64,000 nucleotides of DNA from Daejeonella sp. (lineage in GTDB: Bacteria; Bacteroidota; Bacteroidia; Sphingobacteriales; Sphingobacteriaceae): the NCBI RefSeq assembly GCF_030684675.1, contig NZ_JAUXXZ010000059.1:62001-126000 (forward strand), written 5' to 3'. Below, in pieces: positions 18,070-37,220 of this stretch. Numbering within the stretch: position 1 is the first letter of the stretch; every line of letters begins with the position of its first letter. The notes beneath the pieces were generated by a model. It had not been told where the DNA came from and ran no database searches. It saw nothing but the letters and a program-made list of their open reading frames with translations. The position numbers and the translations under genes are program-made.

Positions 18070-18112
18070 TTGAGTTGTTATTTTTAGTAATACTTAGGAG
18101 TCGTTTAACATT

Positions 18113-20306: not shown

Positions 20307-20373
20307 TAATTTTTCGATTAGCTGTTGTCGACGCTAATTTTGGTAGTTCATGGTGTTGTGGATTTCATAATGG

Positions 20374-20507
20374 CACCTAACGGTTACGGGCTTGGCGAAG
20401 GTGGCGATTTTCATCGAAAACTTGATGCGGAGAACCAACGTTTGATGAACCACAAAACTGTCTGCGGAGTACTGAACCGCCACTTTTGCCAAACGCCTGT
20501 TATAGCC
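20374..20507 (-). repeat. attC-like stem-loop element B (end of cassette 2)
   Basis: Minus strand: GGCTATAAC, AGGCGTTTGGCAAAAGTGGC, centre with GTTCAGT and GCAGACAGTTTTGTG, ATCGCCACCTTCGCCAAGCC, closing with GTTAGGTG (GTTAGGT fits the R' consensus GTTRRRY). The arms pair over ~20 bases with bulges. GGCTATAAC is the exact 9/9 complement of GTTATAGCC that opens cassette 2 at 26631; the match extends to TACCA-TGGCTATAAC with one mismatch. Confidence 0.8.
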
Positions 20508-20725
20508 AGTGGTATTTGTCGTCCGTGTGTGCAAACCATTGTCGTTATTGAGTTTCATTGTCTTTGTCGTGGCGGGTTGTGCGGTCGGGTACTTTTTTAT
20601 TTTTAGAAGGGGAGGAGATTTTTTAATTCAATTTTTTCGGGCGGAAAACTTGGAAGCTCTTTTACAATTTTTGGTTTGTGTGTCGGTCTGTGCGAATTGT
20701 AAATGTGCTTACAAGTGTGTGTCGG
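20508..20725. other. G/T-rich (plus strand) intergenic stretch 3' of the DUF1016 gene
   Basis: Strongly strand-asymmetric sequence full of GTGTGT and GTCGG words. It gives small ORFs in several frames on the plus strand, none with protein-like composition. The same texture appears at 26379-26616 and 35990-36060, that is at cassette edges. Confidence 0.5.
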
Positions 20726-21808
20726 CTATTTGTTGTCTAGCAGTTCCCGCATTTTCTTTTGGAGCACTTTTTTGTCTGGTAGGTATAACTGGTATTTTGA
20801 AACGAAAATTTTATTTGAAATTCCTCTTGTCGCGTATTCGACTGTCACATCGTCCTTGTGTTTCGAAAGAATAATTCCGATTGGTGGATTGTCGCCTTCC
20901 ACGTTTTGTTCTGTATCAAAGTAGTTCAGGTAAAGATTCATTTGTCCGATGTCGTGGTGCTTTACCGATTTTACTTTCAGGTCTATGAGCACAAAGCATT
21001 TGAGGATGCGGTGATAAAAGACCAGGTCAACATAGAAATGTGTATTGTCAAGTGTAATGCGGTATTGCCGGCCAATGAAAGCAAAACCTTTTCCGAGTTC
21101 AAGTATGAAGCTCTGCAGGTTGTCAATAATGCGCTGCTCCAAATGTTTTTCAGTGTACTTGTGGTCTTCAGGAATTTGCAGGAACTCTAAAACATAAGGA
21201 TCACGGGTAATGTCTGTTTCCTTTTCAACAATATGTCCTTTGTTTGCCAGCTTCATTACTCCCTTGGCATCCTTGCTCAAAGCAATGCGTTCAAACAATG
21301 CGGTGTCCATTTGCCTGCGTAGTTCTCTCACCGACCAGTTTTCGTGAATCGCTGTCTGCTGGTAAAAGCCGGTTTCCTGTTCAGTATTACATTTTAACAG
21401 TTCATAATAGTGCGACCAGCTAAGTTGGTGTGACACTGTCAGACCACTTGATTTTATAGTCTTCTTGCTCTTTTGGTGTGACGCTGTCAAACCAGTTCTG
21501 GATTTCCCGGACACAGTCTGGAAAGCCTTAAAACGCTGGTAAAATAAACGCATATAGGTTAGCTGGCTGCGGCTAAAGCCTTTCCCTAATTCTTTTGTCA
21601 AGTCCTTGGATAAGTCTATGAGCATTTGCCTTACCGAAACCTCATCGTATTTCTCGCTATGTTCCTTTTGAACAATCAGTTTTCCGACTGTCCAATAAGT
21701 CTGAAGCAATTCAACATTGATATTGCGAGCAATATTGTGCCTTGCCTGTTCTACCAGTTGCCTGATTTCAGCTATCAGGTCGTTATAAGCGTTCTTAGCT
21801 GGTTTCAT
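20726..21808 (-). CDS. DUF1016 (YhcG-like) protein with PD-(D/E)xK nuclease domain
   Basis: 360 residues. The N-terminal helical DUF1016_N part (IRQLVEQARHNIARNINVEL, TYWTVGKLIVQ, GFSRSQLTYMRLFYQRF, LSWSHYYELLKC) is followed by a nuclease core with FIGRQYRI, FYVDLVFYHRILKCFVLIDLK (D and D-x-K) and DIGQMNLYLNYF. DUF1016 proteins are widespread in mobile and defence contexts. An odd feature is an internal duplication at ~125-150, TGLTASHQ then SGLTVSHQ, mirrored by a DNA direct repeat near 21430 and 21474. The gene overlaps the HTH gene by 4 bp. Confidence 0.85.
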   Translation of the reverse strand: MKPAKNAYNDLIAEIRQLVEQARHNIARNINVELLQTYWTVGKLIVQKEHSEKYDEVSVRQMLIDLSKDLTKELGKGFSRSQLTYMRLFYQRFKAFQTVSGKSRTGLTASHQKSKKTIKSSGLTVSHQLSWSHYYELLKCNTEQETGFYQQTAIHENWSVRELRRQMDTALFERIALSKDAKGVMKLANKGHIVEKETDITRDPYVLEFLQIPEDHKYTEKHLEQRIIDNLQSFILELGKGFAFIGRQYRITLDNTHFYVDLVFYHRILKCFVLIDLKVKSVKHHDIGQMNLYLNYFDTEQNVEGDNPPIGIILSKHKDDVTVEYATRGISNKIFVSKYQLYLPDKKVLQKKMRELLDNK

Positions 21809-22425: not shown

Positions 22426-24201
22426 TTATATTTCATCGTACCGAAAGACTTTACTTGCTAATTCAGGTGTGATAGTAAGTGCATCTCCTCGTCTCGTTGT
22501 TCTCCCAGTCTCGCTAATTAAATGCAAGTTTGTTTTTGCCCGCGAGCAAATAACATACATCAGTTTCTTTGATGCATCGGTTGCATTACCTGAAAAAATC
22601 TCATTCCAATGAGGAATATATCCATTTAAAAGCCCGTAGGCAATCACTGTTTCAAATTCTTCCCCTTTTACTCCAACACAGGTATTGATAATTACTCCCG
22701 TCATTTCTCTATAGAAACTTTTGAATGATTGAATATCGCTGGGAACTTTAAAGTCGGGATCATTTAATCTGCTTTCTATACTATCAAAGAATAGCTTTCT
22801 ATTCTCCACCAATTGAGGGTATTTCGTGACATCAATTTCTACGGCCTCAAGAAATTGATCAAAGCAATCGTTCAAATAATCTATTCCTTCTGGTTCACTT
22901 GATTTAATGGAATTGATTAACTTCAATAAGTTTCTTTCAATTCTAAACTCTTCATTGAACTCAGTATTTGTTTGAACTCTGAAATTATCAATCAACTCGG
23001 CAGCCCATCGGTATCTTGAAGAATATATTTTAGGATTTGGTTCCGTTAAAAATAGTCGTGAGAGTTTATACCAAATGTTTTCTCTATTTCTTGACATTGG
23101 TGCTAAACCGGAAGCATCAAAGTGTACATCGGGCAATGTGGCTCTTAGTTTTTTTGATACTGAAGTTATCAGCCACCATTGAGGAACAAGAACGCAAATC
23201 TCATCTTCCGGAATGCCGCTATCTAAACTCATCTGAATTAACCGGGCAATCTCATCAACTATTTTCGCATGATGGATAGTATTATTGAGAGTAATTAGTC
23301 CTACTGTTTCCGAATTACTGCCAACCGCTTCAATTTTTATAGTTTGAGTTTGGAAGTGTGTGTAAAAATCAATTATTCTCTGACTTGACCTGTAATTTCC
23401 AGTAAGTGTTAATGGATTAATCGGCATTCCGTCAATTTCTGCCTTAATCTCTGCCATACTTTTTGCTACACCTCCAAGAGAAGCATAAATCGCTTGGTCA
23501 GTATCACCAACAAGAAATAAAGATGTATTTCCGTTACCCGCTTTGATAATTACCGAGATAATAGCATACAGCAAATCTTGAGTATCTTGATACTCATCAA
23601 CGCAAATTAACTTAAACAAGTTAGAAAGTGTTTGCTGAATTTTTGGGTAAGTTATAAGAATCCTATATGAGTAAAAGAGAAGTAACTCAAAGTCAATAAG
23701 CTTTTTGCTTTTAAGAATTTCGTGATACTCTTTCAAAAGTTTCCTCTGAACGCTTTTGGGTTCTATGAAACTTCCATCTCTATTGAACCTCAGATTAACA
23801 GGGTCTATTTGCTGTAAGCCGTGTTTCTCCTTTAAGCTGTTAATCAAATCCGAACAGAATGTTTCGTCCGCAATTGAATAACCATTTTTTAATTCGGGCA
23901 AGTAACAAGAGTATGGCTTTATTATCCACTCAAAGCAAAATGAATGAAGTGTACCTGACCAAATTTTGCCGCTGTTAATTCCCATTGCATTCAGTCGTCT
24001 GAAAATCTCTTCCGAGGCACGAACAGTGAAGGTTAGGGCAACAATTCTCTTTTTACTGCTTTGATCAAGTTGTGTTAATTCGTAGGCCAACTTATGAATA
24101 ATTACTCGTGTCTTGCCACTGCCAGGGCAAGCGGTTAACAAAACGTTTCCTTCCTGTTTAACCGCTACTCTTTGTTCATTATTTAATTTGTCAAGTATCA
24201 T
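22426..24201 (-). CDS. gajB: UvrD/PcrA-like helicase, GajB-like (Gabija)
   Basis: 591 residues of superfamily 1 helicase. Motif I is ACPGSGKTR (~24-32), Ia region ALTFTVRASEEI, motif II VDEYQDTQ, motif III LVGDTDQAIYA, motif IV LTGNYRSSQRIID, and a motif V/VI-like TCVGVKGEEFETVIAYG near the end. Its start overlaps the upstream OLD-type ATPase gene by 4 bp. That pairing and order (ATPase/TOPRIM nuclease then UvrD helicase) is the Gabija anti-phage layout, where GajB associates with the GajA nuclease. The end lacks a long 2B region, as in GajB. Lies in predicted cassette 2. Confidence 0.82.
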   Translation of the reverse strand: MILDKLNNEQRVAVKQEGNVLLTACPGSGKTRVIIHKLAYELTQLDQSSKKRIVALTFTVRASEEIFRRLNAMGINSGKIWSGTLHSFCFEWIIKPYSCYLPELKNGYSIADETFCSDLINSLKEKHGLQQIDPVNLRFNRDGSFIEPKSVQRKLLKEYHEILKSKKLIDFELLLFYSYRILITYPKIQQTLSNLFKLICVDEYQDTQDLLYAIISVIIKAGNGNTSLFLVGDTDQAIYASLGGVAKSMAEIKAEIDGMPINPLTLTGNYRSSQRIIDFYTHFQTQTIKIEAVGSNSETVGLITLNNTIHHAKIVDEIARLIQMSLDSGIPEDEICVLVPQWWLITSVSKKLRATLPDVHFDASGLAPMSRNRENIWYKLSRLFLTEPNPKIYSSRYRWAAELIDNFRVQTNTEFNEEFRIERNLLKLINSIKSSEPEGIDYLNDCFDQFLEAVEIDVTKYPQLVENRKLFFDSIESRLNDPDFKVPSDIQSFKSFYREMTGVIINTCVGVKGEEFETVIAYGLLNGYIPHWNEIFSGNATDASKKLMYVICSRAKTNLHLISETGRTTRRGDALTITPELASKVFRYDEI

Positions 24202-26309
24202 AGAAGAGCTAAAAACTTTGTCAATTGGTCTTCCTTGAAGGCATCACAAAATGTGGTTAGAATTTCTTCTTCACTTTTTCCTCGTGTCTTAAATTTTTTA
24301 GCCTCACCTTGTAAATCGTCATTCGCATTATTCCTCATCGAACGCAGACGATATAGAGCCGCTTTTGCTTTTGAAGATTGGTTAATGTGGGAAGAAGAAA
24401 ATGCAATAGCTTTAAGAATATAGTTTGGAATGTAGGTATTGTAAAAAATATGTTCAGCGACCAAAAGAGCTAACCAACCTTTGCCTTGTTTATCAGCAAT
24501 TCTTAAAACTTCTACGCCCGCCACTTCAACAGAGGTATCTTCAAGCTTGACCTTTGCTTTCGCTATGTCCGCTGGTCTTGAATAAATTTTATCAAGACAC
24601 TCAGTAAGCTCAAAGCTATTGCCCTTCATTAGAAAATCAACTTCAAATGTATGTTTGAAGTAGAATGTCTTTAAAAATGTGTTTCCATTACAAAAATCAG
24701 TTAATCGAACTTTGCGCTCTTCCCCACTTTTTTCTGATGCCCTGCAATGCTTTTGATAGTCATCATCGTCTTTTGGATCTGCTGGAAGTGTTACAATGGA
24801 TTTGTCCAGATCAGTAAGTATTGCACAATTCTTATTGATTCTGTCTGCGTGGAATATTCTCGCAACATTCTCAAACCCTGTACTACCAATATTTACTAAA
24901 CTTATTCCAATTTCATCGAGTGAAAGTCCAAATACCTTTTTGAACATTTCTGGAATTAAGATTTGCTCTGCATCACCTTCAACCAAAATAATTCCTTTTG
25001 CAAAGAGTAAATTGCTTCGCACGGCATCTAAATACCTCTCAATCCTAACAATTTCTTCCGGTTGAAGATTATTCGAAGGATGAAAAACTAATGCTTCTCT
25101 TTCCCCCCTACTCAATACATTCAGGCTGCTAATTTTACTCACAGATGAAATATGAGTTGAATGAGTTGAAATTATTACTTGCGTTCTATTTTCTTTGATG
25201 TTGTTAAAAAGCGTTTTTTGGATATGTGTATGAATATGAGCTTCTGGCTCTTCTATCAGGAGAAAATTTGCAATCCTGTCAGTTTTCACCTTCTCATATT
25301 CAAGCAGCTTTAATGAAAGATAAATGAGATTAGCTCCACCTAGACTTAGTTCCCATATTCTTCCTTTGTAACCTTCATCATCAGGGTCACCTACCCAAAG
25401 TCTTAATGATTGGAATAGTTTTTCCATTTCGTTTGGCAACTCAGATTTAATTTCAATGTTTGGGGCATAGGTAGTGCCAACAGCTTCTTTAATGCTTTTG
25501 TCAATTCCCCTCTGAACTTCTTTCACTTCATCAAGCGAACTGATTTGATCATTAAGTTTGTCGATGCTCTCAATTATTTCATTTGATTTTGCGACTTCAA
25601 CGGTTTTCTCCTTTCCTCTTAAAAGGTTTATCAAGGGATTGCTTGCATATGATCTTAAATCACTTTCAACATCTCTCAACGCTTTTATAAAGGTGCAGGA
25701 AACTTCATTGTGAATATTAATTTCTTTCGGTAGCCAAGTTCCAAATATTAGTTCCTCTTTATCATCAGGATCGGGGAATTCGACTGTTTCAAAATTGCCC
25801 ACGTACTTGGAATAAACTGAATCCTGGCTAAAATCAGCAGATCCTCTACTTAAATAAACTGTTTCGTAATCTTCAAGAGTGAGCTTGTCAAGGATAAGCT
25901 GTAAGTCAGTTACATTTTTTCCAGACGTTTGAGAGTAGTCATAAAGTTCTTTTCTAAATTGGTACTTTGGCCTGAAGTAAACCGCATAACTGCCTTGTGT
26001 AGCCGTGTCCATATGTCCGCTTGATTGCACCGCCAATGCTTGCGCTTCTTCACTTGAATCTAATTCGTCAAAGACAATTGAAATAATTATCCAATGGCCT
26101 GCCCAATTCCCTATGGCTCTATTAAAGTCTGCCGGATAAAAATTGATGTATCTTGGAAGAGTATCATCAATTAGTATTCTCAAAGCATAAAACAAGTTTG
26201 TTTTCCCTGAGCCGTTTTCGCCAATAATAGTATTTATGCCGTTCTTAAAGTTTAGTTTTACTTTTCTGAAATTCCTGTAATTTCTAATTGATAAAGAAGA
26301 TATGTGCAT
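24198..26309 (-). CDS. gajA: OLD-family ATPase/TOPRIM nuclease, GajA-like (Gabija)
   Basis: 703 residues from the ATG at 26309 (MHISSLSIRNYRNF), which is where OLD proteins normally start; the frame is open 37 codons further upstream, but that part reads as leader. Walker A GENGSGKT (30-37), an ABC-type signature LSLGGANLIYL, Walker B LLIEEPEAH (~350), STHSTHISS, then a TOPRIM domain with VEGDAEQILIPEMF (~440) and TDLDKS (~500). GajA senses nucleotides and nicks DNA. The protein is longer than classical GajA (~580), so another class-2 OLD/UvrD subtype is possible. Confidence 0.82.
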   Translation of the reverse strand: MHISSLSIRNYRNFRKVKLNFKNGINTIIGENGSGKTNLFYALRILIDDTLPRYINFYPADFNRAIGNWAGHWIIISIVFDELDSSEEAQALAVQSSGHMDTATQGSYAVYFRPKYQFRKELYDYSQTSGKNVTDLQLILDKLTLEDYETVYLSRGSADFSQDSVYSKYVGNFETVEFPDPDDKEELIFGTWLPKEINIHNEVSCTFIKALRDVESDLRSYASNPLINLLRGKEKTVEVAKSNEIIESIDKLNDQISSLDEVKEVQRGIDKSIKEAVGTTYAPNIEIKSELPNEMEKLFQSLRLWVGDPDDEGYKGRIWELSLGGANLIYLSLKLLEYEKVKTDRIANFLLIEEPEAHIHTHIQKTLFNNIKENRTQVIISTHSTHISSVSKISSLNVLSRGEREALVFHPSNNLQPEEIVRIERYLDAVRSNLLFAKGIILVEGDAEQILIPEMFKKVFGLSLDEIGISLVNIGSTGFENVARIFHADRINKNCAILTDLDKSIVTLPADPKDDDDYQKHCRASEKSGEERKVRLTDFCNGNTFLKTFYFKHTFEVDFLMKGNSFELTECLDKIYSRPADIAKAKVKLEDTSVEVAGVEVLRIADKQGKGWLALLVAEHIFYNTYIPNYILKAIAFSSSHINQSSKAKAALYRLRSMRNNANDDLQGEAKKFKTRGKSEEEILTTFCDAFKEDQLTKFLALL

Positions 26310-26622
26310 AAGAATCTCAGATTTAGGATGTGAATTTGAAAATAACTGGGTAGGTGAAATTGGCTCTTTTGGTTTTGCCCGTGTGTCGGTTTGTGGGTAG
26401 CGCAAAACCAAATGTGCCAATGTGGGCTGGTATAAATTGAATTAAAAAATGTGCGGTGGGGAAAAATAAAAAATACAGAAGTGTCGGCAAGGAGTGTCGG
26501 TTTACTCGTTGTCCGTTTGAAATATGATTTGTATGTAGGTCACCTGTCAAAATGGTTTGTCTTTGTGTTAATATTTAAATTTTAGGTCGGTCGGTCGTCT
26601 TTGGAACGGTCGTCCTACCATT
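26310..26622. other. Leader/promoter region of the gajA-like gene
   Basis: No gene. C/A-rich on the coding (minus) strand, without a clear TAnnTTTG box that I could fix. ACGGTCGTC at 26606-26614 lies exactly 17 bases inside the cassette start, the same as at 36049-36057. Confidence 0.45.
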
Positions 26623-26757
26623 GGCTATAACGTTTCGGGGGTTTAAGAAGTTGGGGATTTCGGAGCACAAAACTGTCTGCCACCACTGAACTTGATACGA
26701 AGCACAAATGTTTGATTAACCACTGAACCCCCAATTTCTTAAACCCCTTGTTATCGG
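26623..26757 (-). repeat. attC-like stem-loop element A (end of cassette 1)
   Basis: 135 bp. Minus strand: CCGATAAC, then AAGGGGTTTAAGAAATTGGG, centre with GTTCAGTGG twice and GCAGACAGTTTTGTG, then TCCCCAACTTCTTAAACCCC, closing with GTTATAGCC. The long arms pair over about 20 bases with few mismatches. CCGATAAC is the exact complement of GTTATCGG at the attI-like point (36074-36067), the predicted start of cassette 1, and the match continues as AGAG..ACCGATAAC. Confidence 0.8.
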
Positions 26758-26929
26758 TTGCTCTTCTGTCCGTCTGAAGATGTGTCGTGTCAAGTTTGCT
26801 CACACTTTGTCCGAAGCCGCCTAAGATAGAAGCACTGTCTGTCCAGTTACGCACTGTGCGGTTGGAAAAAAAATTAAAACACCGTAGGGTGGGAAAAAAA
26901 ATAATTTGAATTTCTTCTTGGGTAGGAGA

Positions 26930-26996
26930 AAAAAATACTCTCTTAAAAACTTTGGTCGTGGGCTGGCTTGCAGCGGTTTTTAAGAGTGTATTTTTT
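26930..26996 (-). terminator. Strong hairpin 3' of the TerB-like gene
   Basis: AAAAATACTCTCTTAAAAAC pairs with GTTTTTAAGAGTGTATTTTT around a ~25-base loop. It is placed ~25 bp beyond the stop at 27021 and followed by a T-rich run on the minus strand, so it should end transcription of the five-gene operon. A hairpin of related design is found upstream of the operon (35837-35900). Confidence 0.65.
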
Positions 26997-27020
26997 TGTG
27001 CGTGGGCTTCTACCTTCATT

Positions 27021-27551
27021 TCAATTTTCGTCTTTAGATTTTGAAAAGTCAACTGCCACAAGGTCTATGAAGTCAGGAATTGCTATTGAAGCAAACAAGT
27101 CGTCATGCGTTTCTGATTTTACAATGTCTTGTGAATAATCTTTGTCAAACAAATATTCAACCACTCCAAACCTGTCACGAATTACTTCATCATGAACTTT
27201 GAGTTTAGAACGCAAGAAGCGAAGAAACTTAATTTCATTCTCGTCAACTTTCTCGTCTGCGTGAACAAGGCGAAAAGAAACTTCAAGAATTAAAAGTTCT
27301 TGAACAACACCGATGTCAAGTTTTGCAAGTGTGTCAAACAGTTCGTCAACTATGTGTTTACCTCTTGCTTTTAAGTCAGAGAGTAATTCTTCTAACTCGT
27401 CTGTCAAGTCAATGCCGTTGAAATATGCTGATGATTTGTTCATCAACTTAATTTCTTTGACTTCTCTATCGTCAATGTGTCCGTCACAAGCCATTAAGCA
27501 AAATGCTGTGCGAAATAATAAGCGTTGAAAATCTGGTCTTTCTAATGTCAT
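27021..27551 (-). CDS. TerB-like protein, last gene of the Hsp70/AAA operon
   Basis: 176 residues. Two TerB-type acidic helix-loop units are visible: FCLMACDGHIDDREVKEI (~17-34) and RLVHADEKVDENEIKFLRFL (~98-117), the duplicated D..ID..E/E..+ pattern of the tellurite-resistance TerB fold, a possible metal-binding or scaffolding helical bundle. TerB domains recur in predicted stress and anti-phage systems (for example Shango). It is 14 bp from the AAA gene and ends the operon. C-terminal ~40 residues are of unknown type. Confidence 0.72.
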   Translation of the reverse strand: MTLERPDFQRLLFRTAFCLMACDGHIDDREVKEIKLMNKSSAYFNGIDLTDELEELLSDLKARGKHIVDELFDTLAKLDIGVVQELLILEVSFRLVHADEKVDENEIKFLRFLRSKLKVHDEVIRDRFGVVEYLFDKDYSQDIVKSETHDDLFASIAIPDFIDLVAVDFSKSKDEN

Positions 27552-27565
27552 CGTTTTTTGAATTA

Positions 27566-29344
27566 TTATTTGAAACCTATTGGAGTTCTATCGTTATCGT
27601 CTTTGCCTCCTTTTTCGTTATCCCACTTCTGTTTGAGTGCAACATATTTATTGATTTCCTTTAGAGTTACTGATGGCTTGTTTGTTTTGATAACTGTTTG
27701 CAAAACTTCCATTGTAATTCTGCTCTTTACTTTCAATGCTTGTCTTGATGCTTCATCAATTAAAAACTTGATGTCGCTTGAAACATAGTTCTCTGTTAGG
27801 AGTGAAAGAATATCGTAATCAACTGAAAGGTCAACTGGTCTGTCTTTCAAATACAATTTGAACATTGCTGCTCTTGCCGCTTTGTCGGGTGGTGATAAAT
27901 AAATTGTCTTGTCTAATCTTCCTGCTCTCAAAATTGCAGCATCTATTTTTTCAGGTCGGTTTGTTGCACCGATTACAAATATTCCTCTCTCTCCGCAATT
28001 TGTCATTTGTGCTAAAACTTCATTCACTGCTGATGCTGCTCCTTGATGAAGGTCGCCTTCTCTGCTTGGAACAATTGCATCTAATTCGTCAATGAAAATT
28101 ATTGTCGGTGCGTTTGCTTCCGCTTCCTTAAAAAGTTTTCCAATGTTTTCTTCCGTTGCATTTACCCACTTACTTTTTAAGTCAGAAGGTTTAATCATTA
28201 CGAAGTTGTAACCAATTTCATCGGCAAACTTTTGAGCAATAAAAGTTTTTCCGCATCCGGGTGGACCATAAAGCAACATTCCGTTAGGAATGGTAATTCC
28301 GTAACTGGCGTAAAGTTCTTTCTCACTCAATGCACGAATTACATCCGTGTAAAGAATTTCTTTCAACTCACTCATTCCCGCAATCTGGTCAAAGCCGCTG
28401 CCTTTTTTCTTTTCTTTCTTCTCAATTTTCTTCTCAAATGATTTTTCAACTTCCTGTTTCTCTAACATCACTTCACGCTTCAATGCTTTTGAAAAATCTT
28501 CTGCTGTTTGAAATCTTTGCTCAATGTCAATGGAAAGTGCTTTTGTCAAAGTGAATTTCAGTTGGTCGTCAATTTCATTTTCGTCTGCAAAATCAAAACT
28601 CAATTTCTTTTCTCTTGCTTGTTCAACCAATCCTTTCACTTTGTTTAAAGGTTGGCTCAAAATATTTTCATTATACCAAGGTGCAACTCCGAAAAGTAAA
28701 TGATGCAACAATGCACCAACTGAAAACAAATCACTCTGCGGAATGAAAACTCCGTTTAATAATTCGGGTGCGGAATGAAAAAATGAAAGTCCTTTGATTG
28801 AAACACTTTGATTGCTGTTCTCTAATGTTCTTGCTTGTTCAAACCCTGTCAAAACAGGCTTCTCTCTTTTGGTTGAAAGGTCAAGAAAAATAGAAGTTGG
28901 CAAAATGCCGTTGTGAATTATTGGTTCAGATTTGTTGTGCAAATATTCAATTGCCTCTAACAACTCTGTAACTATCGGCACTGCTTCGTATGGAGAAAGT
29001 TTGCCTTCCCGTTTTAATTTTTCTGCAAGCGTTTCACCACTAATAAAATCAAAAGTGAGATAGGCGAATTTCTGTTTGTCAATTATCGTTTCGCCTTCTT
29101 CTTTCAATGCAGAAATATTTGTGTGCTTAATTTTTTTCAGCAAAGAAACCTGAATGAGTTTTCCTTCCTCAAAAAAAGAAGATGGGAGTGAAGCAAGATT
29201 TATCAAGTCAAGCCGAATAATATTTCCGCTTTTGTTTTTGGCTCTGTATGACTGAACAAAAGAATTGCTTCCGATTGGAAATTGAATTTCGTATCGGTCT
29301 GCAATTACAGTTCCTTTTGGAAATATGTTTTGCTTACTTTCCAT
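27566..29344 (-). CDS. Pseudokinase-AAA+ ATPase fusion
   Basis: 592 residues. Residues ~15-290 follow the Ser/Thr kinase fold (IADRYEIQFPIGSNSF, EAIEYLHNKSEPIIH, the SAPELLNG P+1 region, DLFSVGALLHHLLFG), but every catalytic position is lost: the VAIK Lys site reads RLDLI, HRDLKPEN reads HNGILPTS, DFG reads GFE. A charged linker (KKIEKKEKKKG) leads to a classical AAA domain with Walker A GPPGCGKT (~360), Walker B IIFIDELDAI (~415), sensor/second region of homology ATNRPEKIDAAILRAGRLD. This is a substrate-remodelling motor with a probable protein-binding pseudokinase. It shares one base with the Hsp70 gene (TAATG). Confidence 0.85.
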   Translation of the reverse strand: MESKQNIFPKGTVIADRYEIQFPIGSNSFVQSYRAKNKSGNIIRLDLINLASLPSSFFEEGKLIQVSLLKKIKHTNISALKEEGETIIDKQKFAYLTFDFISGETLAEKLKREGKLSPYEAVPIVTELLEAIEYLHNKSEPIIHNGILPTSIFLDLSTKREKPVLTGFEQARTLENSNQSVSIKGLSFFHSAPELLNGVFIPQSDLFSVGALLHHLLFGVAPWYNENILSQPLNKVKGLVEQAREKKLSFDFADENEIDDQLKFTLTKALSIDIEQRFQTAEDFSKALKREVMLEKQEVEKSFEKKIEKKEKKKGSGFDQIAGMSELKEILYTDVIRALSEKELYASYGITIPNGMLLYGPPGCGKTFIAQKFADEIGYNFVMIKPSDLKSKWVNATEENIGKLFKEAEANAPTIIFIDELDAIVPSREGDLHQGAASAVNEVLAQMTNCGERGIFVIGATNRPEKIDAAILRAGRLDKTIYLSPPDKAARAAMFKLYLKDRPVDLSVDYDILSLLTENYVSSDIKFLIDEASRQALKVKSRITMEVLQTVIKTNKPSVTLKEINKYVALKQKWDNEKGGKDDNDRTPIGFK

Positions 29345-31908
29345 TAGTCAGTTAATACGCTGTCGTCACCAGCAAAAATTGGTTTATCGCTTTTCGGTAA
29401 CAGTTTGTAAAGTTCCATTACAATAGGTCTCAACCTTTGTTTTGTAGGTGTTGTTGCTGCAATACTCAAACCTTGTTGGATTAACATTTTCGCTTTGCTC
29501 CTGTCACTCCATTCATTAAGGTCAAACTCATCATTAAACTCTTTTAGAATTTGAATTTCCATTTGTGCTCCCATTGCGGCATCAACCAACATAAAATCAA
29601 GTGCTCTCATTTGGTCAATCAATTCCTTCGCAACTTTTACATTCTTCTCTTTTATCACTTGCGGAATTTGCTCTTTGAATTGTGCAATTGCTGCTTTTAC
29701 TCCTTCATCATTTATTCCCTCAACCCTGCCTTCAACTTTTTTGAAAGTTTCTTCTAAGCGGTAAAAGGAATTTTTCAATTCTTCTTCTGTCTTTGGAAAC
29801 TCTGCTGCATCTTGTAAATCATCAATCTTTCTTAAACTTCTGCGAAGGTTGTCTAACACTTGTTTCTTTCTATCGTAATCACTTCTGCCTTGCTCCAAAA
29901 GTTTTTCAAGTTCTGCAACCTCTGAATTTATTTTCGTCAATTCATCTTTGCTTGTTGTTCCGCCTTCGTTCTTGATAATATTTAATGATTGTTTCGCTTT
30001 TGCAATCTCTGTTTCCAACCAATCAGCATCAATGTCTTCTTGATTTTTGCTTTCATATTCAATTTCGTGAGAGTATTCAAGAATGGGGAAATATGCACTA
30101 AGTGAAATTCTACCATCTTTTACTTTTACAGTTAATTCAACACTACTTCCAGACGGTAATAGTTTTGGCAAATCCTCTCCTGTAATAATTGCGTTAAATA
30201 CATGTTGATTGTAAATAGACCTTGAACCGTTTGCATCATTCTCGGCTTCATATACAGGAACTTTTATAAAATCTCCTTTCAGTCCAGGTCTTAAATCTTT
30301 TTGTGTTTTTAAATCGTTAGCAATACCTGTTGCAGGTTGGGATTGATTTTTTTCCAATCCTTTAATTGACCTAAAGATTAATTTGTTGCTTGCTCTGCTC
30401 TTAATCTCAATTCCGATATGGTAAGGAAGTGTGGCACTTCCAATTTTTGAACCTTGAATAATTAAAAACTCCGTTGGCTCACTTGGCAATAAATCTCCCT
30501 TTTCATTGTAAACAAAAACATTAAAAGAGTTTGCTTTCCCAGCGTTTAATTTTATTTCAATTACTTCACCCGCTTCATCTATTTGAACTTTGCCACTGTC
30601 CCACGCTTTATCAGAACGGGCAATCATTGCATAAACTTTATCGGGAATATTTCCTTCCGTTTTGTCTTTTAAAATTTTCACCGTTATGAATTGCTCCATC
30701 TCAACCGTTGTCGGTTCGTAACCAAGACCTAATTGAATTTTAGTCCTGTCTCGGTTTTGCTCTACAAGTTCTTCCGAAACATTTATGGTTGAGGCAAACA
30801 ACGCGGCACCTTCTGCAACTGCTGTCATTGGGTCAATGCTTGTATCAACTTTGTCGGTTATTTGCTCTTTCAACATTCTCCGAAGGATAGGAGAATAAGT
30901 CGGCCCTCCAACTAAAATTAAAGCACCAATGTTTTTTCCAACAAGTGAATTTCTTTGTAGTAATTCTTTGCAGATGTCAATTGCCTTTTGGAAAATTGGC
31001 GATATGACAGGGCTTAAAATTTCTTCTGTAATTTTAATGTCTAATTCAATTTCAACTCCTTTATCATCTTCAGGAAAATCATCAGGGTCGGAGAGTGAAT
31101 GAGAGGAGTTAGCAAATGATAAATCTATTTTGGCTTTTTCGGCAAAAACTTTTAATGCTTCTCTGAAATATTCTTTTTTATCTCCTTGCTCAATAAAACT
31201 ATTGATTGAAAACTTTTCACCTAAATGAGGAATTAAGATGTCATCTACAATAGCAAAATCAATATTCTTTCCCCCTAAATAATTGTCTCCTTCTGTATCA
31301 ATTACTTTCATAATTCCATCTTCCACTTTCAAAAGTGCTGCATCAAAAGTTCCACCACCAAAGTCAAAAACTAACCAAAGACCGTCTTTGCTTTTTGCAT
31401 CAAGCCCGTATGCCATTGATGCTGCAATTGGTTCTTGTAAAAGTTCGCAATGTTCAAACCCCGCAAGTTTAGCTGCTCTGCTTGTTGCATCTTTCTGATT
31501 GATGGTAAACTTAGCGGGAACTGTAACGATAACAGATTTCAGTTCTTCGTCTGTGATAAACGATTTCAGTTTCTTCAACACTTCTGCTGATAATTCTTCC
31601 GAAGTGTAATCTCGGCTCATGTTTGAACTGGAATATTTTTTATCAGTTCCCATTGTCCGCTTAAACTCAATGTAGGTATTGGTATCGGCTTGTAATGTTT
31701 TCAATGCTTTCAGTTTGTCTGAACGAAAAGCGTTTGCAGCTCCATCACCAGCGACAATGGATTGCTTTCTATTAAAGTTGATACAGGAAGGCATTGTATC
31801 TTTTAGGGTGTCTGTTTTTTTAATTACAGGTTTCCCATTTTCAATTCTTGAGATAGCGGAATTTGTTGTTCCTAAATCAATACCGTAGTCAATTTTTGTT
31901 CTTGCCAT
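29344..31908 (-). CDS. Hsp70 (DnaK-like) chaperone with extended coiled-coil C-terminus
   Basis: 854 residues against ~640 for DnaK. The actin-like ATPase has phosphate-1 GIDLGTTNSAIS (~9-20), phosphate-2 LVFDFGGGTFDAALLKVE, and adenosine motif ALILVGGPTYSP. The substrate-binding part diverges from DnaK (VPVYEAENDANGSRSIYNQH in place of the IPT..F-PVQF block). The last ~220 residues are predicted coiled coil (EVAELEKLLEQGRSDYDRKK). It is clearly not the housekeeping DnaK and has its own J-like and GrpE-like neighbours. It probably acts with them on a specific target. Confidence 0.9.
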   Translation of the reverse strand: MARTKIDYGIDLGTTNSAISRIENGKPVIKKTDTLKDTMPSCINFNRKQSIVAGDGAANAFRSDKLKALKTLQADTNTYIEFKRTMGTDKKYSSSNMSRDYTSEELSAEVLKKLKSFITDEELKSVIVTVPAKFTINQKDATSRAAKLAGFEHCELLQEPIAASMAYGLDAKSKDGLWLVFDFGGGTFDAALLKVEDGIMKVIDTEGDNYLGGKNIDFAIVDDILIPHLGEKFSINSFIEQGDKKEYFREALKVFAEKAKIDLSFANSSHSLSDPDDFPEDDKGVEIELDIKITEEILSPVISPIFQKAIDICKELLQRNSLVGKNIGALILVGGPTYSPILRRMLKEQITDKVDTSIDPMTAVAEGAALFASTINVSEELVEQNRDRTKIQLGLGYEPTTVEMEQFITVKILKDKTEGNIPDKVYAMIARSDKAWDSGKVQIDEAGEVIEIKLNAGKANSFNVFVYNEKGDLLPSEPTEFLIIQGSKIGSATLPYHIGIEIKSRASNKLIFRSIKGLEKNQSQPATGIANDLKTQKDLRPGLKGDFIKVPVYEAENDANGSRSIYNQHVFNAIITGEDLPKLLPSGSSVELTVKVKDGRISLSAYFPILEYSHEIEYESKNQEDIDADWLETEIAKAKQSLNIIKNEGGTTSKDELTKINSEVAELEKLLEQGRSDYDRKKQVLDNLRRSLRKIDDLQDAAEFPKTEEELKNSFYRLEETFKKVEGRVEGINDEGVKAAIAQFKEQIPQVIKEKNVKVAKELIDQMRALDFMLVDAAMGAQMEIQILKEFNDEFDLNEWSDRSKAKMLIQQGLSIAATTPTKQRLRPIVMELYKLLPKSDKPIFAGDDSVLTD

Positions 31909-31931
31909 TTTTATAATCTTTAAATGATAGT

Positions 31932-32846
31932 TTATTCTCCTTGGCTTACTTCAATTTGTGCTGACTGTATCATCACACCTTTGAAATTTACTTGTGGCTT
32001 AATAATTCTTGTAATGATTTGCTCACCTGCTTTTAAGGTTTCATCAGGTTTAAAGTTTGCCGTTACTTTCATTCCTTGGTCATACGGCTTATTGAGCATA
32101 TCAACCAGTTCATAACCGTTCGCCTCAAAGTTGTCTTGAATTCTTTTTACAGAAGCAACAAGTTGTTTCAATCCTTTTGTTTCAGCATCCATGTTTCCTA
32201 AATTCTTTTGGATGCGAATTATTTCATCAGCCACCTTCAAAGCAAGTTCGTGATTTACTTCTTCGGCTTTTGAAGAAGGAACGGCTTGCCGTTCCTCTTT
32301 CATCAGTTGCATTTGCGAAGCAAGTAAATCAGCCAACTTGCTGTCAAGTTTTACTCCTTCTTCTTCTAATGCTTTTTTCGTTTGCTGAATGTTGGCTGTA
32401 ATGTCGGTTTTATTTTTTGAGACTTGTTTGCGGAGCAAACCGAAAAGCAAAACAGAAAGCAATGCAATTCCTAAAACTGCAATTATCCAATAAAGTGTGT
32501 TCTTGCTTACTGTTTCTTGAACTCCCTGTATTTGTTTTTCTGCTGTGGTCTTGTTGTCTTGAATTTTAACTCCCAAATCGTTGCTAAGAGTTTGAATGTT
32601 TGCCTTGCTGTTCTCTATTTCTGCCCTTAAATTTTTGATGCTGTCATTTGCAGCAGCAAGTTTATTTGAAAAATCAGTTTTCTGATTTTTCAATTCTGTT
32701 TTCAAACTGCTGTTTGCAGTTTCAATTTTTTGCAACCTGTCTTGTAGGTCTTTTATTTCGGGGCTTATATCCGTTTGTGCAAGTGTAACTTGCACTATGA
32801 ACAGCAAAAGCAAACTTGTTGCTATGTGTAGAATTGTTTTTCTCAT
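31932..32846 (-). CDS. Membrane-anchored coiled-coil protein with GrpE-like C-terminal domain
   Basis: 304 residues. A signal peptide (LHIATSLLLLFIVQVTLAQ), then a long coiled coil outside (~25-110), one membrane helix (LYWIIAVLGIALLSVLLFGLL, ~116-136), and a cytoplasmic part. The last ~70 residues (FEANGYELVDMLNKPYD, KAGEQIITRIIKPQV, GVMIQSAQIEV) resemble the GrpE beta domain, which ends ..GY...GR.IR.A.V.V. An inner-membrane-tethered nucleotide-exchange factor for the adjacent Hsp70 is inferred from this and from position. GrpE homology is the weakest link and needs a structure-based search. It overlaps the upstream J-like gene by 4 bp. Confidence 0.6.
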   Translation of the reverse strand: MRKTILHIATSLLLLFIVQVTLAQTDISPEIKDLQDRLQKIETANSSLKTELKNQKTDFSNKLAAANDSIKNLRAEIENSKANIQTLSNDLGVKIQDNKTTAEKQIQGVQETVSKNTLYWIIAVLGIALLSVLLFGLLRKQVSKNKTDITANIQQTKKALEEEGVKLDSKLADLLASQMQLMKEERQAVPSSKAEEVNHELALKVADEIIRIQKNLGNMDAETKGLKQLVASVKRIQDNFEANGYELVDMLNKPYDQGMKVTANFKPDETLKAGEQIITRIIKPQVNFKGVMIQSAQIEVSQGE

Positions 32847-34519
32847 TTATTTCCTGTTAGTTTTTTTAACTCTGCGTTCTTTAAGATTATTTGCTCTTCA
32901 AGTTTTGATATTTCTTTTTTCCTATCGCTTTCCCCTTTTGATTTTAAGCGTTCAATTTTCTCGTGTTGTTCAGCAATTTGCCGTTGCTTGGTTTCACTTG
33001 AACGGAACAATTGCCATTCATTAATACTTGCCATTTCAGTTTCTAATGTTTGCATTTCAGAGGCATACATTTTTTTACTTTTAGTATTTGATAACTCCTT
33101 TTGAAGTTTGCTAATTTCACCATCTAATTTTGATTTTTCAAAATTGAATTTTATGCTGTTAGTAATTGGTAGGAGGGAGAGAAATGTGGACTTTTTACTT
33201 TTAAAGAAATCAGAGCTTTTGTAAGATAATTTTGCCAACAGTTTATCCAGCGAGGTGTAAAAATTCTTTATTAAATCGTCCTTTCCTGACTTGGCGATTT
33301 TTTCAATCATGCTATTATCAAGTAATGGTATTGCTGCTTCCCTTATCTTATCTTCATTCACAACTTTAGACCTTCCGCTAATTATAGCATCAATACCAGA
33401 GTTTTCCTTTTCTACTTCCGCATAGACATTAATTACTTGGTTTAGAAATGCTATTACTTGTTTAGCATCCCTGTAACGCATTTCTTCAAGAGTGTCTAAA
33501 GCTTCATCAATTCTGTTTTTTACTTGTCCAGTTGCTCCAATGCTCTTAGCGTAATTTGCAATCTTTAAGGCATCTTCAAACGGGTCAAAATCTGTGTCAT
33601 TATCAGAGTTGTAATAGTTGAAAAAATCAATGGAGCATTGGAGCAATTCATTTGATACTTTGTTTACTATGACCTGATAATTCACATTGCCTGCTCCCAA
33701 CACATTTTTTAGAAATGCTAAATCAGTCTTGGTCTGTTGGTATAGTTCTTCCCCGTATTCCTCGGCATCACTCGCATCTTCTGTTCTGCTTTGTTTTGTT
33801 TTTTCAACTTGATTTTCAATGTTACTTACAGGTCTGTCAGTAAATTTTGCAGCTACATATTGCTTTGTCTCTGATGGGAAACTGCTGAAAGCATCAATTA
33901 ATTGAGATGAAGTAATTCCCTTTGTCTTGTTCAAATACGGTTTTAGTATTTGTAAAATTTCGTCAACAAATTCCTTTCTGATTGTTTCCTTACTTACGCT
34001 TGTATTGTCTCCTGCAACCGTTTGAACGAAGTTCAAAAAAGCATCTGATGAAATGATGTGTCCTTTGAGTTCAACACACTTTTTTAATTGTATAGGATTG
34101 AATGAGCCGTTAAGCGTGGTCATTCCTAATTGGAGAGTTGAAAGATTTAATGCTGCCGAATAATTCTTTGCAGTAATCGTGTTATCCTTGATTAGCTTCT
34201 CCCAAATTTCAGTTGCCTTGTCAATATTGGCTTCTTTCAAATGGTTTAGTGCCGCTTCGTCAATGTGGTTGGTGTTTAGAAACCAAAATAAAGAGAAGTG
34301 AACTTTGTTTTTCGCCTGTTCAATTTTACTGGCTGCTGCTGCAACTGTTTGTTCTTCCCGTTTGAAGTCGCCAAGAAAAGGAAAATCATAGTCAAAGGAT
34401 TTGGACTTGCCAACCTCTGCATAGCGTTTGATAGTTGCAATTTGCTTTTGCAACTCTTTCTCGGTCGCATTGCCGAAAAGTCCTAAAGTCCTGTATGGAT
34501 TTTCTCTTACTGCGTTCAT
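32843..34519 (-). CDS. J-domain-like, coiled-coil protein (first gene of the Hsp70/AAA operon)
   Basis: 558 residues. The start NPYRTLGLFGNATEKELQKQ followed by a second helix KRYAEVGKS has the NPY..LG...A...EI...... layout of J domains, but the HPD tripeptide is absent. A middle domain has LFWFLNTNHIDEAALNHLK and TEIWEKLIKD, and helical stretches to ~430. The C-terminal ~120 residues are a coiled coil (SKLDGEISKLQKELSN). Similar NPYR-type proteins are found next to Hsp70 genes in Bacteroidota (recall, not checked). A substrate-delivery role for the neighbouring Hsp70 is inferred. Confidence 0.65.
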   Translation of the reverse strand: MNAVRENPYRTLGLFGNATEKELQKQIATIKRYAEVGKSKSFDYDFPFLGDFKREEQTVAAAASKIEQAKNKVHFSLFWFLNTNHIDEAALNHLKEANIDKATEIWEKLIKDNTITAKNYSAALNLSTLQLGMTTLNGSFNPIQLKKCVELKGHIISSDAFLNFVQTVAGDNTSVSKETIRKEFVDEILQILKPYLNKTKGITSSQLIDAFSSFPSETKQYVAAKFTDRPVSNIENQVEKTKQSRTEDASDAEEYGEELYQQTKTDLAFLKNVLGAGNVNYQVIVNKVSNELLQCSIDFFNYYNSDNDTDFDPFEDALKIANYAKSIGATGQVKNRIDEALDTLEEMRYRDAKQVIAFLNQVINVYAEVEKENSGIDAIISGRSKVVNEDKIREAAIPLLDNSMIEKIAKSGKDDLIKNFYTSLDKLLAKLSYKSSDFFKSKKSTFLSLLPITNSIKFNFEKSKLDGEISKLQKELSNTKSKKMYASEMQTLETEMASINEWQLFRSSETKQRQIAEQHEKIERLKSKGESDRKKEISKLEEQIILKNAELKKLTGNK

Positions 34520-34536
34520 AATGTTAAGGTAATTTC

Positions 34537-34544
34537 AAATGTAG
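34537..34544 (-). promoter_or_regulatory. -7 box TACATTTG of the chaperone operon, separated from its -33 box by an IS
   Basis: On the minus strand TACATTTG fits the Bacteroidota TAnnTTTG consensus and ends 17 bases before the ATG at 34519. With the IS and one target copy removed, the upstream sequence reads TTTTTG-CCACGCTCTATTAAATTATC-TACATTTG, a 20-base spacer, an excellent TTTG/TAnnTTTG promoter. The TTTG part is now at 35836-35839, 1.27 kb away. The IS end places TTCG 19 bases upstream of the -7 box, so weak hybrid activity is possible. Confidence 0.7.
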
Positions 34545-34553
34545 ATAATTTAG

Positions 34554-35816
34554 GTTCTGCCACGAACCTTGTGAAAATAAGGAAAAAGTTGGAAACTTGA
34601 TGCGTGGAAAAAACGGCACTTTATCACAAGCTTTTGGAGCTTGATTCAAATTGGAAGGTTAATGAAGTTGAGTTAATTGAGGGAGACATTGTGATTTTCG
34701 TGGAGTATGTTTCAAACCACTGGGTTGATAAACAAACTGGAGAAGAGTTGCCGATTTATGATTTAAGGGAAGAACGGATGTGGCGTCATTTAAATACGAT
34801 GCAGTATAAGACGTTCATACATTGTCGAGTTCCCCGGGTTCGAGATTCTAACGGCAAGGTTCGCACAATAGATACGCCATGGGCGAAGGATTTAGACCGA
34901 TTCACGGTCTGGTTTGAAGCCTTTGTGATTGAGGTTTTACTAGCGACAAAAAATCAAACTAAAACGGCAAAGCTTCTTGGTATGGGCTTTAACCAGGTAA
35001 ACCGGATTATGCATAGGGCTAGCGCAAGAGGATTGGCCAGACGTGACCTAAAGGAAGTAGTGAATCTGTCTATAGATGAGAAGTCTTTTCGTAAAGGTCA
35101 TCAATATGTTAGTGTTCTCTCCAGCCCTGATACCGGTGCTATATTGAATGTGACGGAAGATCGCACACAAGTTTCTGCTGAATTGTTGCTTACTGAAACA
35201 TTTGGGTCTGACCAATTAAGGGAGATTCAAACTATTAGCCTGGATATGTGGAAGGCCTTTATCAATGCTGCTGAGAAGGTTTGTCCAAAGGCAGCACTCT
35301 GTCACGATAAATTTCATCTGGTTCAGCATATGAATAAGGCCGTTGATCAGGTACGAAGAGAAGAAACAAAGACCCAGCATGAGCTGAAAAAGACCCGGTA
35401 TATCTGGCTTAAGGATCACGCAAAACTGACCGATTACCAAAGAGAGATGTTTGACACGATCAAAGATATAAACCTAAAAACTGCCCCGGCTTGGCGATTA
35501 AAGGAGATGCTGCGAGACTGCATACCGCATTGTAGTGTCAAATCATTAACAGCTTTTACATTGTGGTTAAGTGAAGCTAATCGAAGTGCACTAAAACCGG
35601 TTATAAGAGTAGCCAAAATGTTTACAAAGCATCTTAAAGGAATACTAAATGCCCTTGGACTTCAAAAATCCAACGCAATGGCGGAAAGATTGAATGGAAA
35701 AATACAGGAGCTAAAAACGGTTGGAAGAGGTTATAGGACGTTCATAAACTTTAAATCCGCCATACTGTTTTTTAACGGAAAATTAGACTTGCTACCACAA
35801 GGTTCGTGGTAGAGCC
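34554..35816 (+). mobile_element. ISL3-family insertion sequence, intact
   Basis: 1263 bp. Terminal inverted repeats GGTTCTGCCACGAACCTTGTG (left) and its partner, read on the minus strand from 35816, GGCTCTACCACGAACCTTGTG, agree at 19 of 21 positions. The direct repeats ATAATTTA at 34546-34553 and 35817-35824 are an 8-bp target duplication, the size usual for ISL3. It carries one transposase gene. The ends and duplication are uncorrupted, so the insertion looks recent. Confidence 0.93.
34604..35812 (+). CDS. ISL3-family transposase
   Basis: 402 residues from a GTG at 34604. A zinc-finger-like and helical N-terminal part is followed by an HTH (KTAKLLGMGFNQVNRIMHRA) and the DDE nuclease: first Asp in LSIDEKSF, second in ISLDMWKAF, then CHDKFHLVQHMNKAVDQVRR, and a final Glu in AMAERLNGKIQELK. 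The order matches ISL3 transposases. The stop codon lies inside the right inverted repeat. It is transcribed away from the chaperone operon. Confidence 0.92.
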   Translation: MEKTALYHKLLELDSNWKVNEVELIEGDIVIFVEYVSNHWVDKQTGEELPIYDLREERMWRHLNTMQYKTFIHCRVPRVRDSNGKVRTIDTPWAKDLDRFTVWFEAFVIEVLLATKNQTKTAKLLGMGFNQVNRIMHRASARGLARRDLKEVVNLSIDEKSFRKGHQYVSVLSSPDTGAILNVTEDRTQVSAELLLTETFGSDQLREIQTISLDMWKAFINAAEKVCPKAALCHDKFHLVQHMNKAVDQVRREETKTQHELKKTRYIWLKDHAKLTDYQREMFDTIKDINLKTAPAWRLKEMLRDCIPHCSVKSLTAFTLWLSEANRSALKPVIRVAKMFTKHLKGILNALGLQKSNAMAERLNGKIQELKTVGRGYRTFINFKSAILFFNGKLDLLPQGSW

Positions 35817-35836
35817 ATAATTTAATAGAGCGTGGC

Positions 35837-35900
35837 AAAAACACTCTTTCATTTTTTTTGGGTTGGGTTTGAGCCGGGCAAAAAAATGAAAGTGTGTTTT
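35837..35900. other. Hairpin upstream of the chaperone operon
   Basis: AAAACACTCTTTCATTTTTT pairs with AAAAAATGAAAGTGTGTTTT around a G-rich loop. In A/T-rich arms, ACTC core and G-rich loop it resembles the hairpin that ends the operon at 26930-26996. It overlaps the -33 box (TTTTTG on the minus strand at 35841-35836), so it may shape expression, or end read-through from the recombinase gene. Confidence 0.55.
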
Positions 35901-36167: not shown

Positions 36168-37220
36168 CTATTCAATATCCAAATCATCGAAAGGGCTTTT
36201 GATGTTCTGCAAGCTTTTAGTGCTTACATGGGTATAGATTTCAGTTGTTTTACTGCTTTTATGGCCCAATATTTCTTGTATGTATCGCAGATCGGTGCCA
36301 TTCTCTAATAAATGAGTGGCATAGCTGTGTCTCAGCCAATGAAGACTTACAGGCTTTTTGATTTTGGCAATGCTTAAAGCTTGTTTAAGTACGCTTGCTA
36401 AACTCCTTTCACTGTACTGCTCCCCGGGATCTTGCCCTTCGAACAGCCACACTTTGGGCCGGTATAGTTTATAATATTCCTGCAATTGGGAAATTATCTT
36501 TTCTGATAAGGGGACTACCCGGTCTTTCCTACCTTTTGCCTGCTTGATTATCAGCAGCTTTCTTTTGGAATCCACATGCATGATCTTCAAATTTAGGATT
36601 TCTGATCGGCGTAGTCCGCTACTATACAGCAAGCAGAGCATTGCCTTGTGTTTGATGTTCTTAGGAGAATTCAGGATCAGTTTAATCTCTTCTTTACTCA
36701 AAACATTTGGTAAAACATGAGCCCTTTTTGGTCGGTGTATCAGGTCTGGATTGATTCGAAGGTCTGTTTGTGTTTTAAAGAATAATTTAATGGCATTGAC
36801 AACCTGGTTTTGGTAAGATGCAGATAATCCGTTTTTAAGCACATAATTATTATTGTATAAAATCACATCTGCATTGCAAATTTCAGTAATTGATTTATCC
36901 TGGTGAAAGGTCAGGAATGAACTTAATGCGTTCATATATGTTTCGATGGTATTTTCGCTATAACGTTTCGATCGAAGCCATAATTTAAACGCAGCAATTT
37001 CTGTCGACTTATTGGCTAAGGGATCTGCAGGACCATGGATTTTGAATTTTTCCAGATATTCCTCTGTCATAGGTAAATGCCATACTTTTAAGCTACTACT
37101 CCATTTTGCACCGGCTAATTTTCTCATTCTAATAACAAGTTCAGTCTTATTCGGAAAATGAACTGCAATTCTTTTTTCTCCCCTGAGTTTCACAAGTTCA
37201 GCCTTCCATTGAATTTCCAT
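36168..37220 (-). CDS. Tyrosine recombinase (XerC/D- or integron-integrase-like)
   Basis: 350 residues. The catalytic set is complete: Arg in SSGLRRSEIL (~200), Lys in QAKGRKDRVV, HxxR in LHWLRHSYATHLL (~293), His in LGHKSSKT, and Tyr in TEIYTHVST (~326). An unusual ~80-residue N-terminal module (AVHFPNKTELVIRMR...WHLPMTEEYLEKF) precedes the SAM-like core-binding domain. The tail IKSPFDDL resembles the VRSPLD end of IntI enzymes, but the IntI-specific insertion between boxes I and II is missing. It is transcribed toward the cassette-like array, as reported for some non-proteobacterial integrons. Confidence 0.9.
   Translation of the reverse strand: MEIQWKAELVKLRGEKRIAVHFPNKTELVIRMRKLAGAKWSSSLKVWHLPMTEEYLEKFKIHGPADPLANKSTEIAAFKLWLRSKRYSENTIETYMNALSSFLTFHQDKSITEICNADVILYNNNYVLKNGLSASYQNQVVNAIKLFFKTQTDLRINPDLIHRPKRAHVLPNVLSKEEIKLILNSPKNIKHKAMLCLLYSSGLRRSEILNLKIMHVDSKRKLLIIKQAKGRKDRVVPLSEKIISQLQEYYKLYRPKVWLFEGQDPGEQYSERSLASVLKQALSIAKIKKPVSLHWLRHSYATHLLENGTDLRYIQEILGHKSSKTTEIYTHVSTKSLQNIKSPFDDLDIE

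Follow-up and report, generated by a model that had tools for sequence, protein, structure and literature searches.

A stretch of 64,000 nt from a Daejeonella sp. genome (contig NZ_JAUXXZ010000059.1, positions 62,001 to 126,000; hereafter the window) carries on its minus strand a compact operon (27021-34519) that very probably encodes a private Hsp70/AAA machine. The five intact open reading frames (ORFs) code for proteins of 558, 304, 854, 592, and 176 aa and are separated, from gene 1 to gene 5, by −4, 23, −1, and 14 bp, in agreement with an earlier note on this DNA, made from its letters alone, which had described a single operon whose genes overlap or lie at most 23 bp apart. Based on gene content, distribution, and genomic surroundings, we consider it probable that this operon has a defense function and, with slightly less assurance, favor a mobile anti-phage or anti-mobile-element system organized around a private inner-membrane Hsp70 machine.

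Domain calls with Pfam on the five operon proteins identified an HSP70 nucleotide-binding domain (NBD), a fusion of Pkinase and AAA domains, and a sub-threshold TerB domain, and matched no family to the 558-aa and 304-aa proteins. To place these genes in a broader context, 84,980 species genomes were scanned with an alignment of the Hsp70 C-terminus, which led to 160 confirmed relatives, and 80 loci were kept. All five genes were found in identical order in 53 of these 80 homologous loci, across many genera and mostly within Bacteroidota, and the others were truncated by contig ends or had no recognized copy of one member, most often TerB. Median spacings across homologous loci were −1, 13, 3, and 7 bp, and it is this recurrence of the same genes, in the same order and at tight spacing, that identifies the operon as more than a chance arrangement. 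Accessory genes also recur around it: a small DUF6804 membrane protein follows the operon in 41 of the 80 loci (e.g., L125:13923-14219; sought and not found in the window), and some related loci include inserted genes encoding lipoprotein-like, secreted SH3-domain, or KilA-N proteins.

The core of the predicted machine is the Hsp70 encoded by gene 3. Its match to the Pfam HSP70 NBD (E 5e-61) spans residues 9-374 and ends there, and the ATPase motifs DLGTTNS, FKRTMGT, DFGGGTFD, and VGGPT are kept in about 75 of 76 family members. Beyond the NBD, residues 485-640 align in register with the beta subdomain of the DnaK substrate-binding domain (SBD-beta) when compared with hhalign (E 4e-4, with a probability of only 33%). 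Judged from these alignments, gene 3 is a catalytically intact ATPase with a divergent substrate-binding region. The source genome has separate DnaK, DnaJ, and GrpE genes. In a few related loci, a further Hsp70, divergent and altered in its phosphate-binding loop, lies between the Hsp70 and kinase-AAA genes (L061:12630-14939, L097:12262-14874, and L130:11563-13638).

Structure prediction and remote homology indicate that gene 2 is a GrpE-type nucleotide exchange factor (NEF) with a predicted membrane anchor, and we know of no prior description of a membrane-anchored factor of this type. Hydrophobic stretches were detected at residues ~1-23 and 118-138, the first of which ends in a conserved A-Q, and the AlphaFold2 (AF2) model, with a predicted local distance difference test (pLDDT) score of 87.6, contains a domain of six strands besides three helices, one long and two short. 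When this model was used as a Foldseek query, hits 1-12 were all GrpE (best E 2.4e-5), and 104 residues could be aligned to 1dkg_B with a root-mean-square deviation of 3.2 Å (Z 8.3). Since BAG domains and other helical bundles reach similar or higher Z on the gene 2 helices alone, the argument for GrpE depends on the ranking by Foldseek and on the beta wing. The protein does not match the Pfam GrpE model and a direct profile comparison with GrpE failed, so that its identity was settled by fold and by an intermediate family: the C-terminus of gene 2 matches a Proteobacterial mini-GrpE family of 114-125 aa (E 8.7e-9), which in turn matches GrpE (E 0.0014). Hydropathy, predicted fold, structural matches, and this homology chain together bear out the description of gene 2 as GrpE-like and membrane-tethered. 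Based on the signal-peptide-like N-terminus, we infer that the coiled coil lies outside and the GrpE domain inside.

Gene 1 is present in 69 of the 80 loci. The N-terminal helices of its predicted model (pLDDT 84.7), at residues 8-11, 20-35, 56-65, and 69-76, follow a J-domain-like order. The HPD motif, located between helices II and III, was found in none of the 69 members, and the hhalign comparison to J domains was weak, covering only 23 columns with a probability of 13%. Fold searches of gene 1 against the PDB returned no clear match, just common helical arrangements, and PDB sequence searches with genes 1 and 2 yielded weak or coiled-coil matches only. Among the gene identities proposed earlier, Hsp70, AAA, and the membrane GrpE-like factor hold, TerB falls short of the Pfam cut-off, and the protein encoded by gene 1 is only J-like, its J-domain membership being unproven.

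The remaining two genes would add a threading motor and a TerB-like partner. Gene 4 combines a kinase-like domain (Pkinase, E 2e-23) with an AAA domain (E 5e-38) whose best PDB match is Cdc48/p97 (E 1e-117 to 1e-124), and in which the Walker A and B, pore-loop aromatic, and arginine-finger positions are conserved. The kinase domain had been described as dead, which is correct for the source copy, where the catalytic Lys, the catalytic-loop Asp and Asn, and the DFG Asp are all lost, but not for the family, in which the Lys (65 of 75 members), the Asn (64/75), and the DFG Asp (61/75) are mostly retained and the catalytic position is occupied by Asp in 27 members or Glu in 30. A dead kinase was accordingly rejected as a defining feature. 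Gene 5 was identified in 62 of the 80 loci, with conserved acidic motifs, and its Haliscomenobacter orthologue is annotated as TerB family.

The distribution of the operon is very patchy. The J-like gene was not detected in any of 59 relatives, 19 of them from the same genus. Among 300 genomes of the order, the Hsp70 C-terminus gave a strong match (E 1e-30) in only two, including the source genome itself; across the phylum, 12 of 395 genomes had a match of any strength, six of them strong (source included). This pattern, together with the strong association with defense islands described below, rules out the reading, raised in the earlier note, of a core-genome operon conserved in all relatives. 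In the Hsp70 tree, the source copy is found among Bacteroidota, Chlorobiota, and Ignavibacteriota sequences, with its nearest relatives in Chlorobiota and Ignavibacteriota metagenome-assembled genomes (MAGs), and a Flavobacterium copy stands beside a nearly identical copy from a Chitinophaga MAG; since MAGs make up many of these records, errors in binning could account for some of the placements. The operon is also carried by isolates, including Aliidiomarina, Haliscomenobacter, Plebeiobacterium, and Flavobacterium omnivorum. It is accessory, and the tree suggests that it was transferred across phyla.

Copies occur on both plasmids and chromosomes and near integrases and relaxases, and a related module lies beside TnsD/TnsE. 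Such contexts would also be expected if the operon served the mobile element itself, i.e., the stability, transfer, or anti-defense of a plasmid, Tn7-like element, or prophage. The carriers are however unrelated and include chromosomes, and no homologue was detected among 50,697 phage records or confirmed in IMG/VR, which makes this the least probable of the alternatives considered here, and a very unlikely one. In Flavobacterium omnivorum (L115/L019), the operon lies near genes that appear phage-like by eye (GIY-YIG, helicase-like), and this copy is possibly prophage cargo.

Genomic neighborhoods link the operon to defense. In the window, a gene pair noted earlier as Gabija-like lies about 600 bp downstream of the operon on the same strand, and is clearly Gabija based on PADLOC matches to both GajB and GajA (Table 1). 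The same five genes are found beside BREX on the Haliscomenobacter hydrossis plasmid pHALHY02. A related Proteobacterial module, composed of mini-GrpE, Hsp70, AAA, and a helical protein, is located between Zorya and Gabija plus BREX-2 on Polaromonas pPNAP01, adjoins Tn7-like transposition genes (TnsD/TnsE) in Shewanella and Aeromonas, and in E. coli HeN100 (L198, 4107463-4133949), where two further genes accompany mini-GrpE, Hsp70, and AAA, sits within an island, close to RdrB (RADAR) and a DptF remnant; its Hsp70 was matched by DNA in only one of 5426 complete E. coli genomes. At another locus (L025), a ThsB-like gene lies near a related module.

The earlier note had suggested a cross-genome search of these neighborhoods and a measure of their enrichment in defense genes, and both proved consistent with its proposal: besides the recurrent gene order, a PADLOC scan (E 1e-15) of three sets of 110 genes matched 97 families for the nearest neighbors of the operon and 230 for genes of these loci at distances beyond 4.5 kb, compared to 10 for random Bacteroidota regions, a contrast that is qualitative because the counts are of overlapping families rather than independent genes, and that was drawn against random genome regions rather than matched accessory islands. 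The most common families were type I and II restriction-modification (RM), HEC-06, Orf5, and mad3 among nearest neighbors, with type I and IIG RM, reverse transcriptases, ZorA, and Cas1 found farther away. The link to defense islands is strong; a function in phage defense is still guilt by association. Both properties of the PADLOC comparison weigh against a defense interpretation, as do three other considerations: defense islands also carry non-defense cargo, and association is not function; the HPD-less J-like protein may not stimulate Hsp70 by itself; and neither a nuclease or toxin domain nor any recognizable effector was found in the five-gene core.

Every core part is a chaperone part, and the operon could thus instead be a mobile envelope-stress or proteostasis module, extracting or disaggregating damaged membrane or secreted proteins and conferring tolerance to stress rather than to phages. 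TerB proteins have been connected with envelope stress, a private GrpE with a predicted extracytoplasmic coiled coil would suit envelope sensing, and the secreted SH3-domain, lipoprotein-like, and DUF6804 membrane proteins mentioned above are accessory members of the operon. Given the very patchy distribution and the defense-rich surroundings, whether on plasmids, Tn7-like elements, or islands, we regard this explanation as unlikely, albeit the most credible of those that compete with a defense system.

No named system with this five-gene set was found in PADLOC (2023), NCBIfam (2026), or the open-licence literature, so that the match to an already described system envisaged in the earlier note did not materialize in these sources; naming elsewhere is possible. 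In PADLOC (2023), genes 1, 2, 3, and 5 lacked a relevant model, and gene 4 matched only generic kinase/AAA models. Several known systems are nevertheless comparable. The GAP1-N2 GTPase conflict systems are predicted conflict operons that likewise have an Hsp70, a GrpE, and a J-domain gene of their own, center on GTPases and FNIII proteins, and are mainly found in actinobacteria and firmicutes (Kaur et al. 2020, PMC7159879), whereas the five genes described here include, by Pfam, no GTPase, and instead a Cdc48-like AAA and a TerB-like protein. Hsp70 homologues are likewise known from predicted defense systems as CoCoNuT CnuD and Hsp70-McrB fusions (PMC11090510); the Walker A-like motif of CnuD is degenerate and its partners are McrBC homologues, unlike the present operon, which has an intact Hsp70 ATPase and no McrBC. 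Shango, defined by TerB, an ATPase, and a DEAD/DEAH helicase (PMC10250203), similarly brings together a TerB-like protein and an ATPase within defense loci, but Pfam identified no helicase among the five genes, which have a chaperone core instead. None of the precedents has this gene set, which is a strong candidate for a new chaperone-based defense system.

Some of these precedents also raise the possibility that the operon, rather than defending on its own, sets a threshold for a neighboring system or otherwise regulates it by gating its effector, a role already suggested for the chaperone pairs of ternary and GTPase conflict systems. Hsp70/GrpE or AAA chaperones have been proposed to set effector thresholds in conflict systems (PMC7159879), bNACHT25 needs host DnaJ with its DnaK-interacting residues intact (PMC12169576), and a core without an effector would fit such a role. 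Neighbors however vary by genome (Gabija, BREX, Zorya, type I RM, and RADAR), leaving no fixed partner for the operon to gate, and we find this explanation improbable.

Another comparable system is the canonical DnaK-DnaJ-GrpE machine with the ClpB disaggregase, which likewise combines an Hsp70, a GrpE-type factor, a J protein (here only J-like), and an AAA+ threading motor. Here, in contrast, the NEF is membrane-anchored, the J-like protein has no HPD, the motor consists of one Cdc48-type AAA domain joined to a kinase domain, and the whole is encoded in a mobile accessory operon. In the mitochondrial presequence translocase-associated import motor (PAM), mtHsp70, Mge1, and the HPD-less Pam16 act at a membrane. 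The likeness, i.e., an Hsp70 and a GrpE-type NEF at the membrane with an HPD-less J-like partner, is one of analogy only: the two systems are not homologous, and in the operon the NEF itself is anchored and a Cdc48-like motor is added.

Returning to a defense system built on this machine, the J-like protein would select or present a client, either a phage protein that enters, damages, or is assembled at the envelope, or a host protein that it alters, and the Hsp70 would capture this client. The tethered GrpE would then reset the Hsp70 at the membrane and may relay a signal from its coiled coil, and the AAA ring would unfold the client, dismantling or blocking a phage step, with the kinase domain and TerB probably regulating or scaffolding the complex. 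Since the core includes no effector domain, remodeling itself, or the release of an effector not recognized here, is the likely action. Direct remodeling of a phage component is one possible mechanism, to which we give somewhat less than even weight. More tentative still is the idea of a new immunity principle, in which a private, membrane-tethered Hsp70/GrpE/Cdc48-like unfoldase would recognize and dismantle a phage protein of the entry, assembly, or lysis apparatus without nuclease or toxin, and would have been carried by mobile elements into several phyla in at least two architectures, namely the five-gene Bacteroidota form and the mini-GrpE form of Proteobacteria.

Table 1 Features of the operon and its surroundings in the window.
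Feature	Position	Strand	Evidence or remarks
Gene 1, 558-aa J-like, mostly helical protein	32843..34519	-	ORF; N-terminal NPYR..LG module 34274-34519
Gene 2, 304-aa membrane-anchored GrpE-like protein	31932..32846	-	Hydropathy, AF2, Foldseek, homology chain
Gene 2, coiled coil	32502-32762	-	
Gene 2, transmembrane segment	~32433-32495	-	
Gene 2, GrpE-like domain	31938-32267	-	
Gene 3, 854-aa Hsp70	29344..31908	-	NBD 30787-31884; ~100-aa extra segment; SBD-beta-like 29989-30456; helical C-terminus
Gene 4, 592-aa kinase-like domain and Cdc48/p97-type AAA	27566..29344	-	Kinase-like 28502-29278; AAA 27665-28387; Pfam, PDB match
Gene 5, 176-aa TerB-like protein	27021..27551	-	Pfam TerB 21.1 bits (cut-off 24.4)
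GajB (Gabija helicase)	22426..24201	-	PADLOC E 2.8e-232
GajA (Gabija nuclease)	24198..26420	-	PADLOC E 1.5e-289 (translated from position 26345); listed TTG probably lies upstream of the true start
attC-like imperfect palindrome between operon and Gabija	26625..26760	.	Related copies 18103-18250, 20370-20510
Predicted −7 box TACATTTG	34536..34543	-	TAnnTTTG, Bacteroidota type
ISL3-family insertion sequence (IS)	34553..35816	+	Transposase 34604-35812; NCBIfam transpos_ISL3 255 bits; inverted repeats
8-bp target duplication ATAATTTA	34545-34552 and 35817-35824		Flanks ISL3 IS, intact
Predicted −33 TTG	35836..35838	-	
XerA/integron-type tyrosine integrase	36168..37220	-	NCBIfam XerA 213 bits (cut-off 220); integron integrase 197 bits (cut-off 265)

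Upstream of the operon, in the direction of transcription, lie the ISL3 IS and the integrase (Table 1), and the source copy appears to have been interrupted at its predicted promoter. Bacteroidota promoters follow a consensus of TAnnTTTG at −7 and TTG at −33, and in the empty site obtained by joining the flanks of the ISL3 IS, the predicted −33 TTG lies 20 nt from the −7 box, i.e., the IS sits inside the predicted spacer. Because the predicted promoter is split in this way, the source copy may be silent or driven differently.

Other features of the window are suggestive of mobility. A tyrosine-recombinase cluster is found near nine related loci, and palindromes related to the attC-like sites of the window were identified near several homologous operons in other Bacteroidota genomes. 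We do not apply the label integron, because the integrase scores below the integron-integrase cut-off; the attC-like sites and XerA-type integrase may represent an undescribed cassette system. A YhcG/DUF1016 PDDEXK nuclease gene (20726-21808) adjoins an attC-like site and is possibly another cassette. A 148-aa ORF (26615-27061) that overlies the attC-like repeat was judged to be an artefact.

Most known phage defenses act by cleaving nucleic acid, by depleting metabolites, or by killing the cell. The recurring defense-island core described here instead resembles machinery for protein remodeling, equipped with an ATPase, an exchange factor, and a threading motor of its own. If it is protective, protein unfolding would be an immune mechanism and proteostasis would be tied to defense, and if unfolding itself is the immune action, the system would be categorically new. 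A related module is natural to an E. coli chromosome, which makes this hypothesis directly testable.

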